A DNA stretch of 64,000 bases. Source: Rhodobacter sp. Lineage in GTDB: Bacteria > Pseudomonadota > Alphaproteobacteria > Rhodobacterales > Rhodobacteraceae. The DNA is taken from contig JASJCA010000034.1 of NCBI GenBank assembly GCA_030066215.1, positions 1 through 64,000 of the forward strand. The letters are read 5' to 3'. The notes beneath the pieces are model-generated. The model was not told the origin of the DNA, did not search any database, and worked only from the letters and a program-made list of their open reading frames with translations. A program made the position numbers and the translations under genes. Positions 6,243 through 61,040 of this stretch are shown in pieces. Position 1 is the first letter of the stretch. Every line of letters begins with the position of its first letter.

Positions 6243-7646
6243 GTGTCGGAAATCATGGGGCTCTCGGGCATGGAGCTGTCGGCGCGGATGGCCCGGGGCG
6301 CGATGTCGGCGGTCGAGGTGATGCGGGCCGCGCTCGACCGGATCGCGGCGGTCAATCCGGACGTAAACGCCATCGTGTCGCTGCGCGACGAGGACGTGCT
6401 TTTGGCGGAGGCGGCGACGGCGGATGCGGGGCCGCGGCGCGGGTGGCTGCACGGCATGCCTCTGGCCGTGAAGGACGTGGTCGCGACCGCGGGGATCCGG
6501 ACGACCTGGGGCTCGCCGCTTTATGCCGATTTCGTGCCGGACCGCGACGATCTTCTGGCGGCGCGGCTGCGCGCGGCCGGGGCGATCCTGATCGGCAAGA
6601 CCAACACGCCCGAGTTCGGCTTCGGCGCGCATTCCTACAACCCGGTCCACGGGGTGACGCGCAATCCCTACGGCCCGGACCGCACCGCGGGCGGGTCGTC
6701 CGGTGGGGCCGGGGCGGCGCTGGCGACCCGCATGGTGGCGGTCGCCGACGGCTCGGACGCGATGGGGTCGCTGCGCAACCCGGCCGGGTGGAACAACGTC
6801 TACAGCTTGCGGCCGACCTACGGGCTGGTGCCGGGCGAGCCGCAGGGCGAGATGCTGCTGCATCCCTTGGTGGCGGCGGGGCCGATGGCGCGGTGCGTCG
6901 CCGATCTGGCCGCGCTGGTGCAGGTCATGGCGGGTCCGGACCCGCGGGTGCCGGACGGGCGGGTGTTCGAAGCCGGCGATCTGCGCGCGGACGTGGCCGG
7001 ACGGCGGATCGGTTGGCTCGGCGATTGGGGCGGTGCTTGGCCGGTCGAGGCCGGTATTCTGGAGCTCTGTCGCGGGGCCTTGAAGGTTTTCGAGGACCTG
7101 GGATGCGTGGTCGAGCCCGTCGCCGCGCCGTTTCCGGCCGACCGGCTGTGGCAAAGCTGGACCACGCTGCGGTCTTGGGCGGCGGTGGGCAAGCAGGGGT
7201 TGCTCTATGCCGATCCGAAAACCCGGGCGCATCTGAAGCCCGAGCTGATCTGGGAAATCGAGCGCGGCCACGCCCTGACCAACGCCGAAATCCTGGCGGC
7301 AAGCGCGATTCGATCGGAGTGGTTCCGCGCGGCGGCGGCGCTTTTCGGGCGCTTCGACGCGCTGGTCCTGCCCTCGGCGCAGGTCTGGCCGTTCCCGGCG
7401 GACTGGGAGTGGCCGAAGGCGATCGACGGCCACGCAATGGACACCTACCACCGCTGGATGGAGGCGATGATCCCGGTCAGCTTGATCGGGCTGCCCTGCA
7501 TCACCCTGCCAGCGGGGTTCGGCGCGGCGGGGCTGCCGATGGGCCTGCAGGTCTTCGGGCCCGCCTGGTCGGACCGCCAGCTTCTGCAGCTGGGGCAGGG
7601 CTATCACGATGCGACCGATTGGCCCGCCAGGCGCCCGCCGCCTTGA
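6243..7646 (+). CDS. amidase-signature family enzyme
   Basis: 467-residue hydrolase of the amidase signature family (GatA/fatty-amide-hydrolase type), which cleaves amide bonds with a Lys-cisSer-Ser triad. Here the triad is K77 (LAVKDVV), S152 (GGSSGG) and S176 (GSLRNPAG). The GTG at 6243 is preferred because a strong GAAGGAGG lies about 9 bases upstream; upstream in-frame residues run into the intergenic repeat. It lacks GatCAB partners nearby and is probably a stand-alone amidase; the substrate is unknown. Confidence 0.88.
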   Translation: MSEIMGLSGMELSARMARGAMSAVEVMRAALDRIAAVNPDVNAIVSLRDEDVLLAEAATADAGPRRGWLHGMPLAVKDVVATAGIRTTWGSPLYADFVPDRDDLLAARLRAAGAILIGKTNTPEFGFGAHSYNPVHGVTRNPYGPDRTAGGSSGGAGAALATRMVAVADGSDAMGSLRNPAGWNNVYSLRPTYGLVPGEPQGEMLLHPLVAAGPMARCVADLAALVQVMAGPDPRVPDGRVFEAGDLRADVAGRRIGWLGDWGGAWPVEAGILELCRGALKVFEDLGCVVEPVAAPFPADRLWQSWTTLRSWAAVGKQGLLYADPKTRAHLKPELIWEIERGHALTNAEILAASAIRSEWFRAAAALFGRFDALVLPSAQVWPFPADWEWPKAIDGHAMDTYHRWMEAMIPVSLIGLPCITLPAGFGAAGLPMGLQVFGPAWSDRQLLQLGQGYHDATDWPARRPPP

Positions 7647-34367: not shown

Positions 34368-36176
34368 ATGGCGGAAGCAGCGACCCGCAGGCGCGGGCGA
34401 GGCGGCGGTGGAGCGGCCCGCCGGGCGGAGCGGTCGGCGGTGGTGATTGAGACCGCGCGGTTCATCGAGCGAAACATCCCGGATTTCGAGATCCTGAATG
34501 CCGAGGCGTTGGAGATCATCGAGGCCAACGCCGAAACGGTGCTGGAGGAAATCGGGGTCAACTTCGTCGAAAACCATGCGGCACTGGAACGATGGCGCGA
34601 GGCCGGGGCGGACGTGCAGGGTGAACGGGTGCATATCCCGCGCGGACTTGCGCGGCAGCTTTGCGCGACGGCACCGTCCATCTTCACCCAACATGCGCGC
34701 AACCCGGCGAAGTCGGTCGAGATCGGCGGCCGCAATCTGGTGCTGGCCCCGGTCTACGGACCACCCTTCGTGCGCGACCTCGAGCGTGGTCGGCGCTACG
34801 CCACGATTGAGGATTTCCGCAATTTCGTGAAGCTCGGGCAGATGTCGAAATGGCTGCACCATTCCGGCGGTACGGTCTGCGAACCGACGGACGTGGCGGT
34901 GAACAAGCGCCATCTCGATATGCTGCTGTCGCACATGACGCTGTCGGACAAGCCCTTCATGGGCTCGGTGACCGAGCCCAGCCGGGCGGTGGATTCGGTC
35001 GAGATGTGCGAGATTCTGTTCGGGCCGCTGGAAGACCGGACGGTTATGACCTCGCTGATCAACATCAATTCGCCGCTGACCTTCGATTCTGTGATGATGG
35101 GCGCGCTGGAGGTGTATGCGGCCGCAAATCAGGCTTCGATTGTCTCTCCGTTCATCGTCGGTGGAGCGATGGCGCCGGTCTCGGTGGCGGGCACCCTGAC
35201 GCAAGTGCTTGCCGAGGTTCTGGCTGGTGTGGCCTATTCCCAGCTCGTGCGGCCTGGCGCGCCGGTGATCATGGGGGCCTTCGTCACCTCGATCGACATG
35301 AATTCCGGTGCGCCCACTTTCGGCACGCCCGAGGCGGCGAAGATCACCTATGGCGCAGGCCAGTTGGCGCGTCGGCTGGGCTTGCCGTTCCGGTCAGCCG
35401 GATCGTTCTGCGGATCCAAGCTTCCGGATGCGCAGGCTGCCTATGAAACCTCCAATTCACTCAACGTAGGGTTGTTGGCGGGTGTCAACTTCATGCTCCA
35501 TGCCTGCGGCTGGCTCGAGGGCGGACTCGTGTCCTCCTACGAGAAATTCGTGATGGACGCCGACCAGTTGGGCGTGTTGCACCGGCTGGCGGCTGGCGTC
35601 GCGGTGGACCCGGACGCCCAGGCGATGGACGCCCTGCGCGAGGTTGGACCGGGTGGACATTTCCTGGGCTGCGCGCACACCCAGGCGCATTTCAAAGACG
35701 CGTTCTGGCGGTCGGATCTGCTGGACTACAAGCCGTTCGAGACCTGGGACGAAGAGGGCGCGCGGCTGGTGACCGGCGGCGGACGGGTGAACCGGCCGGG
35801 GTTCTTTTTGCAGCCCACGGTCTTTGCCGAGGTCAGCGACGGGATGACCATCGCGCGGGACGAGATCTTCGGCCCCGTCATGTCGGTTCTGGACTTCGAG
35901 ACCGAGGACGAGGTGGTGGCGCGGGCCAACGCGACGCCGTTCGGGCTGTCGGCCGGGGTCTTCACCGCCGATCTGACCCGCGGGCACCGGGTGGCGGCGG
36001 CGTTCCAGGCCGGCTCGTGCTGGATCAACGCCTACAACCTGACCCCGGTAGAAGTGCCGTTCGGCGGAGCGAAGTTGTCGGGCGTCGGCCGCGAGAATGG
36101 GTTGGCGGCGATCGAGCATTTTTCGCAGCTGAAGACGGTTTACGTCGGGATGGGAGACGTCGATGCGCCCTATTGA
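34368..36176 (+). CDS. chimeric MttB-family methyltransferase fused to BetB C-terminal fragment
   Basis: 602 residues. Residues 1 to about 461 match non-pyrrolysine MttB/COG5598 trimethylamine/betaine-type methyltransferases ([33 protein letters not shown], and [39 protein letters not shown] in short pieces). From about 466 to the end it matches the C-terminal ~137 residues of betaine-aldehyde dehydrogenase ([33 protein letters not shown]). The last ~50 residues of MttB and the first ~345 of BetB, including the catalytic Cys and Glu and most of the NAD fold, are missing. The joint at 35748-35765 falls in DEEGAR, which both parents have, so an in-frame deletion between adjacent mttB and betB is likely. 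Start: ATG after GGAGGTGA. Confidence 0.88.
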
Positions 36177-36185
36177 GACCTGGGA

Positions 36186-36238
36186 CCGCCCCCTCGGGCG
36201 CGCGCCCACCCGCCCACCCCGCGCGCCCGAGGGGGCGG
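36186..36238 (+). terminator. 18-bp perfect hairpin after the MttB-BetB chimera
   Basis: CCGCCCCCTCGGGCGCGC (36186-36203) pairs perfectly with 36221-36238 around a 17-base loop, 10 bases after the stop codon. No T-run follows, so it may be an attenuator or RNA-stabilising structure rather than a true terminator. Confidence 0.5.
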
Positions 36239-36430
36239 GGCGGTGTTCGGGCGTCGCGCAGTTTGCAGACGTGGACTGTGCTGAGAGGCGCTTGAGTGGC
36301 AGGTTTGCCTCTCAAGGCGCCGGCTCGATGGTTGGGCGGGCCGGCGCCGCGTCAAGGACGCCTGCGGCGCCGCCTGCGGCGGTTGGCCGGGGGCCAATCC
36401 TTGACCCGGCGCCGGCTCGCGAAGGGCGGG
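36232..36430 (+). repeat. direct repeat A, palindromic intergenic element
   Basis: Shares GCTGAGAGGCGCTTGAG, a CTTGAG..CTCAAG hairpin, GTCAAGGACGCCTGCGGCG and GGGGGCCAATCCTTGACCCG with the copy at 36496-36696. Internal inverted arms GCCGGCGCCG-GTCAAGGA / TCCTTGACCCGGCGCCGGC differ at one base. Confidence 0.75.
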
Positions 36431-36495
36431 GGGTCTGGCGATGTAACCTGACATGGGGCCGCTTTCTCCTGCCCTCATCAACCCCATATTCGCTG

Positions 36496-36696
36496 GGGCC
36501 GGGGCGGCATTCGAGCGTTGCCCGGTTTTGGAGGGGTTTGAATTCTGCTGAGAGGCGCTTGAGCGGCAGGTTCGCCTCTCAAGACGCCCTCTCGATGGTT
36601 GGGCGCGCCGGCGCCGCGTCAAGGACGCCTGCGGCGCCGCCCTTGGCGGTTGGCCGGGGGCCAATCCTTGACCCGGCGCCGGCTCGCGAAGGGCGG
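36496..36696 (+). repeat. direct repeat B, palindromic intergenic element
   Basis: Second copy of the element at 36232-36430, in the same orientation, ending 15 bases before the glutathione S-transferase start. Confidence 0.75.
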
Positions 36697-36710
36697 AGGG
36701 AGGTGGGGCC

Positions 36711-37355
36711 ATGTTGACGGTTTATGGGCGCGCGACCTCGTCGAACGTGCAGCTCGTGATGTGGGCGATCGGCGAATTAGGGCTGGCGCATGAGCGGCTC
36801 GATTACGGCCACGTCCATGGCGGGCTCGACACGGACGCGTATCGGGCGATGAACCCGCACGCGCTGGTGCCGACCCTGAAGGACGGCGACCTCGTGGTCT
36901 GGGAAAGCTGCGCGATCCTGCGCTATCTGGCGGCGCGCTATGGAAGCGAGGCGTTTTGGCCCGCGGAACCCGCCGCCCGCGCCCGCGTCGACATGTGGGC
37001 GGAATGGGGCAAGATCACGCTGACCACTGCCTTCACGGTGCCGATCTTCTGGTCGCGCGTGCGCACCGCCGCCGCCGACCGGGACGAGGCGGCGCTGACC
37101 GCCGCCATCGCCCGGTTCGAGACCCTGCTGGGCCGCATCGAGGACCAGCTTGGCCCGAACGACTATCTCTGCGGCGCCGATCTCTCCGCGGCCGACATCG
37201 TCGTCGGGCACCTGCTTTACCGTTGGTTCGACATCGACGTGCCGCGCACGCCGCGCCCAGTGCTCGAGGCCTATTACCGCCGCCTCGCCGCACGTCCGGC
37301 CTATCGCGAGCACGTCATGGTCGACTATTCGGTCCTGCGGGTCGAAGGCGCCTGA
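36711..37355 (+). CDS. glutathione S-transferase family protein
   Basis: 214 residues. N-terminal thioredoxin-fold domain (about 1-78) with SSNVQ at the catalytic-Ser/Cys position, cis-Pro in ALVPTLKDG and the ESCAILRYLAARY G-site segment; helical C-terminal domain with LCGADLSAADIVVGH. Conjugates or isomerises glutathione adducts; substrate unknown. The stop touches the betA start with no gap (TGA-ATG), so it is coupled to it. Confidence 0.9.
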   Translation: MLTVYGRATSSNVQLVMWAIGELGLAHERLDYGHVHGGLDTDAYRAMNPHALVPTLKDGDLVVWESCAILRYLAARYGSEAFWPAEPAARARVDMWAEWGKITLTTAFTVPIFWSRVRTAAADRDEAALTAAIARFETLLGRIEDQLGPNDYLCGADLSAADIVVGHLLYRWFDIDVPRTPRPVLEAYYRRLAARPAYREHVMVDYSVLRVEGA

Positions 37356-39008
37356 ATGCAGGCCGATTTCGTGATTGTCGGCGCCGGGTCGGCGGGCTGT
37401 GCGCTGGCCTACCGGCTGAGCGAGGCCGGCGCCTCGGTGCTGGTGATCGAACACGGCGGCACCGATGCCGGCCCGTTCATCCAGATGCCCGCCGCGCTAT
37501 CGTTCCCGATGAACATGCGCCGCTACGATTGGGGCTACCGGACCGAGCCCGAGCCGCAGCTAAACAACCGCCGCCTAGTCTGCCCGCGCGGCAAGGTGAT
37601 CGGCGGGTCGTCCTCGATCAACGGCATGATCTATGTCCGCGGCCATGCCCGCGACTACGACACCTGGGCCGAGATGGGCGCCGACGGCTGGGCCTTTGCC
37701 GACGTGCTGCCGTATTTCAAAAGGATGGAAACCTGGCACGGCGAGACCGGCGACCCGGACTGGCGCGGGCGCGACGGCCCGCTGCACGTCTCGCGCGGGC
37801 CGCGGACCAACACCTTGGTGCGCGCCTTCGTCGAGGCCGGGCGGCAGGCCGGTTATCCGGTGACCGAGGACTATAACGGCCGCCAGCAAGAGGGCTTCGG
37901 CGCCTTCGAATCGACGATCTGGCGGGGCCGGCGCTGGTCGGCCGCGAATGCCTATCTGCGCCCGGCTCTGCGCCGTCGGAACTGTACGCTGGTGCGCGCC
38001 TTCGTTGAACGGGTGGTGATCGAGGACGGCCGCGCGATGGGCGTCGCGGTCCGCCGGCGGGGCCGGGCCGAGGTGATCGGAGCCCGGCGAGAGGTCATTC
38101 TGGCGGCCTCTGCGATCAACTCGCCCAAGCTTCTGATGCTGTCGGGGATCGGGCCGGCGCGGGACCTGGCCGCGCAGGGGATCGACGTGGTGGCCGACCG
38201 GCCCGGGGTCGGCCGGAACCTGCAGGATCACCTGGAGATGTATATCCAGATGTCCGCCAAGGCCCCCGTAAGCCTTTACAAACACTGGAATATTCTGGGC
38301 AAGGGTCTGATCGGGGCGCGCTGGCTGCTGACCCGGGGCGGGCTGGGCGCGTCGAACCAGTTCGAAAGCTGCGGCTTCATCCGGTCGGCCGCCGGCGTCG
38401 ACTATCCCGACCTGCAATTCCATTTTCTGCCGATCGCGGTGCGCTATGACGGCCAGGCGCCGCCCGAGGGCCACGGCTTTCAGGCCCATGTCGGCCCGAT
38501 GCGGTCGAAGTCGCGCGGCACGGTCACCCTGCGCTCGCCCGATCCGGCCGCGCCGCCGGTGATCCGCTTCAACTACATGAGCCATGACGACGATTGGCGC
38601 GATTTCCGCACCGGCATCCGGTTGACGCGCGAGATCTTCGCCCAGCCGGCCTTTGCGCCGTTTGCCGGCCGCGAGCTCCAACCAGGGGACGCCGCCCAGA
38701 CCGACGCGGCACTCGACGCGGCGATCCGCGACCATGCCGAAAGCGCCTATCACCCCTGCGGCACCGCGCGCATGGGCCGGCGCGACGACCCGATGGCTGT
38801 CGTCGACCCTGAGACCCGGGTGATCGGGGTGGACGGCCTGCGCCTGGCCGACAGCTCGGTCTTTCCGCAGATCACCAACGGCAATATCAACGCGCCCTCG
38901 ATCCTGGTGGGCGAGAAGGCGGCCGACCACATCCTGGGCCGCGCGCCGCTGGCCCCCGACAACGCCGCGCCGTGGGTCCATCCCGACTGGCGCAGCGCGC
39001 AGCGCTAA
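37356..39008 (+). CDS. betA: choline dehydrogenase / GMC oxidoreductase
   Basis: 550-residue GMC flavoprotein that oxidises choline to betaine aldehyde (family BetA). FAD-binding [15 protein letters not shown] at the start, [24 protein letters not shown] (in short pieces) for the GMC signature 1, catalytic His in HPCGTARMG and Asn in [17 protein letters not shown]. Close match to BetA in length. The expected partner betB is represented only by the C-terminal fragment in the upstream chimera, so the locus appears broken for choline-to-betaine conversion unless another BetB exists (inference). Confidence 0.88.
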
Positions 39009-58327: not shown

Positions 58328-58666
58328 GGCGGGTGGGAGTTGGCCCGGTGCGGGTGTCGGTGCACCTGCCCCGGGCACGGACTCAAGGGGCGCAGCCCCG
58401 CCGGGCCCATCGCCGCCCCGCCCGGGTGGGGTGGCGATTGGTCGACACCTGCGCACCGCGCGATGTTCTACGGACTCGATTGCCATAAAGCGCCTCAGAT
58501 CCGAGGTCGGCTCGCCACCCCGCGGGTCGTCGATGGGCACGGCTCATCTCTTCGTCACCAAGGCTGATCCAGCTCATAACCACGCCACGCCGCCGTCTCC
58601 CCACCGATCGCCGCACACACCCGATTTCCGTTCAAGCCCGCCGCAAAACCCGCTACGGTTGCCGCC
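58328..58666. other. 339-bp gap containing intergenic repeat copy
   Basis: No convincing gene; largely occupied by the repeat 58360-58545, whose inverted mate is at 60770-60998. Confidence 0.65.
58360..58545 (+). repeat. ~200-bp inverted-repeat element, copy 1
   Basis: Contains CCCCGGGCACGG-CTCAAGGGGCGCAGCCCC, GGGTGGCGATTGG, ATGT-CTACGG, GCCATAAA and CTCGCCACCCCGCGGGT, all present in reverse orientation at 60770-60998. Confidence 0.7.
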
Positions 58667-60709: not shown

Positions 60710-60769
60710 GCGGCGAACGCCGGTGAAGCGGACGCCAGGCCGGCGGTGACAGCTGCCGTGGCTAGTGCA

Positions 60770-60998
60770 GCCGTGCCCATCGCCAACCCGCGGGGTGGCG
60801 AGGCGACCTCTCAACTGCAGCGATTTATGGCTGTCGAATCCGTAGGACATCGAGCGGCGCGCGAGGATCGTCCAATCGCCACCCCTCCGGGGCGTTCGTG
60901 GCCGCCCGAAAAAAGGTCCACTGGACCATTTTCGGTCTACGAACTGGCGATGGGCGCGGCGGGGCTGCGCCCCTTGACTCCGTGCCCGGGGCTTAGAT
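60770..60998 (-). repeat. ~200-bp inverted-repeat element, copy 2
   Basis: Reverse-orientation copy of 58360-58545, with an extra ~45-bp piece near 60901-60945 carrying a GGTCC-AGT-GGACC hairpin. Confidence 0.7.
60909..60927 (-). terminator. hairpin plus T-run downstream of ppx
   Basis: On the minus strand GGTCC-AGT-GGACC is followed by TTTTTT, about 115 bases after the ppx stop (61041). Plausible rho-independent terminator, within the extra piece of repeat copy 2. Confidence 0.5.
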
Positions 60999-61040
60999 GG
61001 AGCGCCGCCTTCAGGCCGACCCCGCCCCGCACGCCTGCCG

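Follow-up and report, generated by a model that had tools for sequence, protein, structure and literature searches.

Extracts from PMC12478193 describe glycine betaine demethylation in Ruegeria pomeroyi with PF06253 proteins named MtgB (for example, SPO2108 and SPO2134), which are of the non-pyrrolysine type within the MttB superfamily. The N-terminal half of the frame described here resembles this type at the level of the PF06253 family, and differs from the superfamily in that its last ~46 residues are replaced by sequence of BetB. The C-terminal part in turn matches the C-terminus of BetB (TIGR01804, NF009725); unlike BetB, only the C-terminal third is present, with the ELGG and GQxC motifs and everything upstream absent. 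The locus also resembles chimeric contigs in metagenome-assembled genomes (MAGs), as they are treated in excerpts of PMC8201837, in that collinearity changes inside two genes, continuations are missing and the assembly is fragmented and incomplete. Unlike the contigs in those excerpts, the demonstrable overlap here is short and both halves resemble one sister genome, seemingly a single organism. We find that the frame is best read as a chimeric joint rather than as an evolved fusion enzyme.

Anatomy of the chimeric frame

The window analysed is a stretch of 64,000 nt from Rhodobacter sp. (GCA_030066215.1, contig JASJCA010000034.1, positions 1–64,000), an organism of the same family as Ruegeria pomeroyi; its own assembly is called G000 below. 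As the original prediction had it, one continuous 602-residue frame (34,368–36,176, plus strand) runs from an ATG start with zero internal stops, and its coordinates and anatomy were right: in Pfam and NCBIfam searches an MttB-family N-terminal part is followed by the last ~138 residues of BetB. Pfam MTTB covers residues 11–466 of the frame (profile 1–458 of 500) and Aldedh covers residues 460–591 (profile 327–461 of 461).

The mttB 5′ part (34,368–35,754, plus strand) is orthologous to C5:162040–163524 of G001 at 89% protein identity. Among the 41 genomes compared (our own and 40 relatives), G001 alone is of the same genus; 393 genera for 394 family genomes leave no room for a further one. 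This half scored 725.7 bits against PF06253 (cut-off 25) and 231.3 bits against TIGR02369, the pyrrolysine trimethylamine methyltransferase (equivalog cut-off 525); its best solved chain was 4yyc_A. Close mttB matches (E ≤ 1e-150) were present in 360 of 394 family genomes, G000 included. The MttB C-terminus is incomplete, with profile positions 459–500 unmatched. The predicted loss of ~50 C-terminal residues is borne out at ~46, both by the 512-aa G001 orthologue and by 46 consensus columns missing relative to 86 relatives, an alignment that includes L105, whose own frame end is aberrant. In this lost end 35% of columns are at least 90% conserved, versus 69% of the other 448 columns.

L105 (JAAUPC010000058.1, a draft genome) carries a 619-residue mttB frame that abandons the usual C-terminus after SERVK; this end, an out-of-frame read-through with no BetB tail, looks like a frameshift. 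Other mttB matches lie inside open frames of more than 1,100 codons (for example, G198:C53:13253–14737, G158:C242:29074–30570 and G170:C8:622803–624242), which are perhaps read-through of GC-rich sequence, or fusions with other partners.

The betB 3′ part (35,766–36,176, plus strand) keeps the normal stop, and its best solved chain was 3r31_A. NCBIfam placed it nearest to betaine-aldehyde dehydrogenase, far under the full-length cut-offs (TIGR01804, 183.8 bits, cut-off 668.6; NF009725, 211.9, cut-off 593), with matches over the C-terminal part only. It begins at about residue 344 of the 483-aa BetB of relative L039, beyond ELGG (249) and GQIC (280–283), motifs that we take to hold the catalytic Glu and Cys; both residues are thus gone, in agreement with the prediction. 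The tail nevertheless keeps 42 of 43 invariant columns, and its relative-distance ratio to BetA is 1.05, versus 0.70–1.51 in 11 relatives. A decayed betB remnant was rejected, as this relative-distance test revealed no excess change in the tail.

Two direct repeats of 162 nt, 92% identical to each other, lie between the betB tail and gst (36,272–36,433 and 36,539–36,700, plus strand); related sequence occurs on C3 and C11 of G001. The predicted gst–betA neighbours are still in place after the chimeric frame and on the same plus strand: a glutathione S-transferase-like gene (36,711–37,355), collinear with G001 C1, and betA, encoding choline dehydrogenase (37,356–39,008; TIGR01810, 821.6 bits, cut-off 732.1).

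At the protein level, the joint reads DEEGAR followed by LVTGG. The DNA is mttB-like through GACGAA (35,749–35,754) and betB-like from GCTGGTGACC (35,766 on): the sequence is GACGAAGAGGGCGCGCGCGAC in G001 mttB, GCCGAGGGCGCGCGGCTG in the BetB relative L039 and GACGAAGAGGGCGCGCGGCTG in the window. Overlap can thus be demonstrated over GAGGGCGCGCG (35,755–35,765, plus strand), 11 bases common to mttB and betB relatives; this is a minimum extent, judged from relatives, and the overlap between the genome's own intact parents may be longer. In relatives of mttB, DEEGAR or a similar motif mostly precedes a D and an end of ~46 residues with moderate conservation; most of the 11 betB relatives have (A/K/D)EGAR, then L, with GG two or three residues on. 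The joint therefore lies, as predicted, at a DEEGAR stretch common to both parents (DEEGAR and KEGAR in relatives, with at least 11 bases in common). Codon phase is equal in both parents, so the frame survives, an outcome with a one in three chance. The joint is the sole site of GAGGGCGCGCG across the 165,387 bases of G000 that were examined, so this word is no common repeat there. GC skew is +0.051 to the left of the joint and −0.015 to its right, a difference that is uninformative because 20-kb pieces of both G001 contigs fluctuate equally.

Comparison with relatives

A conserved fusion was not found in the 41 genomes or among the best 80 loci of a GTDB genome-contig scan. In a search of 394 family genomes, with up to three candidates scored per genome, only G000 extended past query residue 494 among the matches listed. 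The runner-up among them was the unfused mttB of G001, at 975 bits; a fused orthologue should outrank it and would therefore be expected among the matches listed. The same domain order in related genomes, as an evolved gene fusion would have it, was thus absent among those matches. A conserved ancient fusion, the counter-case named beforehand, was looked for and not found.

The two halves map to distant places in the sister genome. Window 1–35,764 is collinear with G001 C5:126915–163436, the main matches being in order and mostly at 78–84% DNA identity; exceptions are one stretch at 70.9%, a segment at ~31.0–31.85 kb that lacks any DNA match, and a pair of short secondary matches off the main chain. 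Window 36,699–58,318 is collinear with G001 C1:57782–38259, reversed. Between them, 35,764–36,699 (the betB tail and the two 162-nt repeats) has no collinear match to G001 C5 or C1 because G001 lacks betB, and the change of collinearity, of the kind looked for in a chimeric assembly join, is therefore bracketed to this interval and no finer on G001. The betB tail belongs with the right-hand side, since betB stands directly before betA in L039, L040 and L043. The predicted setting of the chimera at a choline/betaine locus accordingly held for the betB side and was not confirmed for the mttB half, which is collinear with C5.

Judging from contig extents and positions, a distance of about 215 kb or more separates mttB from betA in G001. 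A close betB (61–73% identity to the tail) was present in 12 of the 41 genomes and was beside mttB in none of the 12: the two were on different contigs in 9; in G004 and G014 they share a contig at a distance of hundreds of kb, and in G025, the nearest case, ~28 kb separates them on one strand, betB preceding mttB. The fetched flanks of 88 mttB loci (including duplicate contigs L031/L077 and L035/L153, and some flanks of only 46 bases) contained no betB tail (0/88). No intact adjacent mttB–betB pair was thus found in these flanks or in the 12 close-betB genomes.

A dispersed repeat of ~180 bp is located at window 58,360–58,560 and 60,769–61,020, with many copies in G001; blastn against 470 kb of G000 returned 17 pieces for the first copy and 21 for the second, each count including the copy itself. 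Collinearity with G001 jumps beside both window copies, to C5:264.9 kb and then to C1:276 kb, and on contig C196 a copy (6642–6796) lies just before a jump at 6904. Rearrangement through the repeat would account for these jumps, as would assembly joins made at its copies.

Missing continuations in the assembly

G000 is a draft of 4.55 Mb in 211 contigs, with 89.14% completeness and a contamination value of 3.13. Downstream of mttB in G001 come genes for DUF6477 and DUF6456 proteins (L031 11171–12858, G001 C5). Of the 78 mttB loci whose downstream flank reached 2.5 kb or more, 73 contain DUF6456 (72/76 distinct contigs; absent from L090, L097, L121, L035 and L153), so its absence from G000 suggests incomplete assembly more than loss; among loci with less than 2.5 kb of downstream flank, the count was 7/10. 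Within G000, the mttB end was represented only by the joint itself and by a 33% paralogue on C180, DUF6456 was not found, and a DNA search with the G001 stretch returned no counterpart of DUF6477. The transporter genes next in line after DUF6456 in G001 are on contig C129 of G000, ending at C129:4597 versus G001 C5:165421.

The bet locus of G001 is arranged as choV-choW-choX / betI-betC-gst-betA, without betB (BetI-type and choline-sulfatase domains were found); choV, choW and choX are the names that we assume for these genes in G001 and on C89. In G000, choV and part of choW lie at the very end of contig C89 (C89:11–1564 versus G001 C1:62278–63834), where choW stops at position 11, a contig end. 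choX was not found in G000, and a DNA search for betC/betI with the G001 stretch gave only a 93-base, 73% match on C67. For betB, G000 yielded the tail alone: other matches were aldehyde dehydrogenases of at most 41% identity, with no betB 5′ part and no second betB elsewhere in the assembly. The G001 locus (L068, C1:50000–69900) has betI-betC-gst-betA and no close betB, its best aldehyde dehydrogenase being 41% identical; betaine aldehyde may therefore be oxidised there by another enzyme.

Origin of the joint

Collinearity changes at the joint, the continuations of both genes are missing, and mttB and betB are both broken in this sequence whichever explanation applies. We infer that the 602-residue frame is a one-off weld of two gene regions, somewhat more probably made outside the cell, in vitro or in silico, than inside it, a weighing of odds that is judgement and not computation. 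Such a weld would join the mttB locus (window 1–35.76 kb) to the choline–betaine locus (joint to ~58.3 kb), and the two appear to come from one Rhodobacteraceae genome. The contig could have been closed by a read or fragment that bridged the two genes at their common GC-rich stretch (at least 11 bases), or by an assembly path running through that stretch, with the true continuations of both genes left out of the assembly or the bin. The organism itself would then probably carry mttB and betB, along with the genes usually beside them, intact and at separate places.

A join made in the library or assembly leaves both true continuations missing by construction. We prefer an artefact because two well-conserved genes are cut at once with both continuations missing, and because a contig end truncates choW and no decay is seen in the betB tail. 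Library end repair can produce chimeric reads at microhomologies, according to extracts from PMC8674242. Several points count against an artefact. Further order breaks separate G000 from G001 (for example, at C129:4597 and at window 58.3–58.7 kb), and de Bruijn assemblers usually work with k-mers longer than the 11-base overlap. The GUNC authors call misassembly in MAGs relatively rare in the excerpts from PMC8201837. In Salmonella, the deduced junction microhomology cut-offs that separate true duplications, inversions and deletions from ligation chimeras are ≥11, ≥12 and ≥8 bp, respectively (PMC3411829, in extract); by analogy, at least 11 bases of junction homology would be long for a ligation chimera. 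Twenty further G000 stretches, hand-chosen and partly from contigs with earlier matches, were compared with C5 (most of it) and C1 (in part) of G001; just three (C20, C38 and C92) gave a match that passed the filter, too few to estimate a base rate of chimeric genes.

A real and recent inversion or translocation, with ends in mttB and betB and acting through the common GAGGGCGCGCG, is a credible but less probable source of the joint. Both genes would have been broken in the organism, the reciprocal junction (choW-choX-betI-(betC)-betB 5′ joined to mttB 3′-DUF6477-DUF6456) would fall in one assembly gap, and the in-frame read-through would be a one-in-three accident. Consistent with this, the other order breaks also separate the two genomes, a single gap of ~7 kb (lengths taken from G001 and from the L039 betB) would cover all the missing pieces, and junction homology of at least 11 bp is within the range of experimentally verified bacterial rearrangements in the extracts from PMC3411829. 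The double gene disruption must, however, have spread, in an mttB with close matches in 360 of the 394 family genomes; the reciprocal junction must be unassembled; and the other breaks that could be placed fall at gene ends or close to them (C129:4597, C129:569, C89:1564 and C196:6904).

The original prediction favoured a local microhomology deletion in a neighbouring mttB–betB pair, which would fit the common DEEGAR/KEGAR stretch and the kept frame. This was not supported, and we regard it as improbable: the parents were not neighbours in any of the fetched flanks or close-betB genomes, G025 has betB before mttB and thus the wrong order, and, assuming that the G001 order is ancestral, genes expected inside the deletion or next to it are still found on other contigs (choV-choW on C89, the transporter on C129).

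A functional fusion, in which an MttB-type methyltransferase has gained a new BetB-derived C-terminal domain, would be very improbable despite the open frame without stops, the well-conserved betB part and the close identity of the mttB part to that of G001, given that it is seen in a single genome among the matches listed for the 394 family genomes, that the tail lacks both BetB motifs and the part preceding them, and that MttB loses its 46-column end. It would be just as surprising, judging from sequence, if the joint were present in a living population and the 602-residue protein were made, through recent recombination of two distant methylated-amine genes; the sequence offers no functional case for the chimera. 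Among the three readings originally offered, the wreck and the assembly join thus survive, and a true fusion is unlikely.

The preferred reading of a chimeric joint carries a wider lesson. In a fragmented assembly, a chimera whose frame is open and looks conserved can be mistaken for a fusion enzyme, and it is revealed by comparing collinearity with a single sister genome and hunting for the missing continuations. Were the joint real, it would mark a fresh rearrangement in one lineage, with an MttB-type gene and betB both broken.
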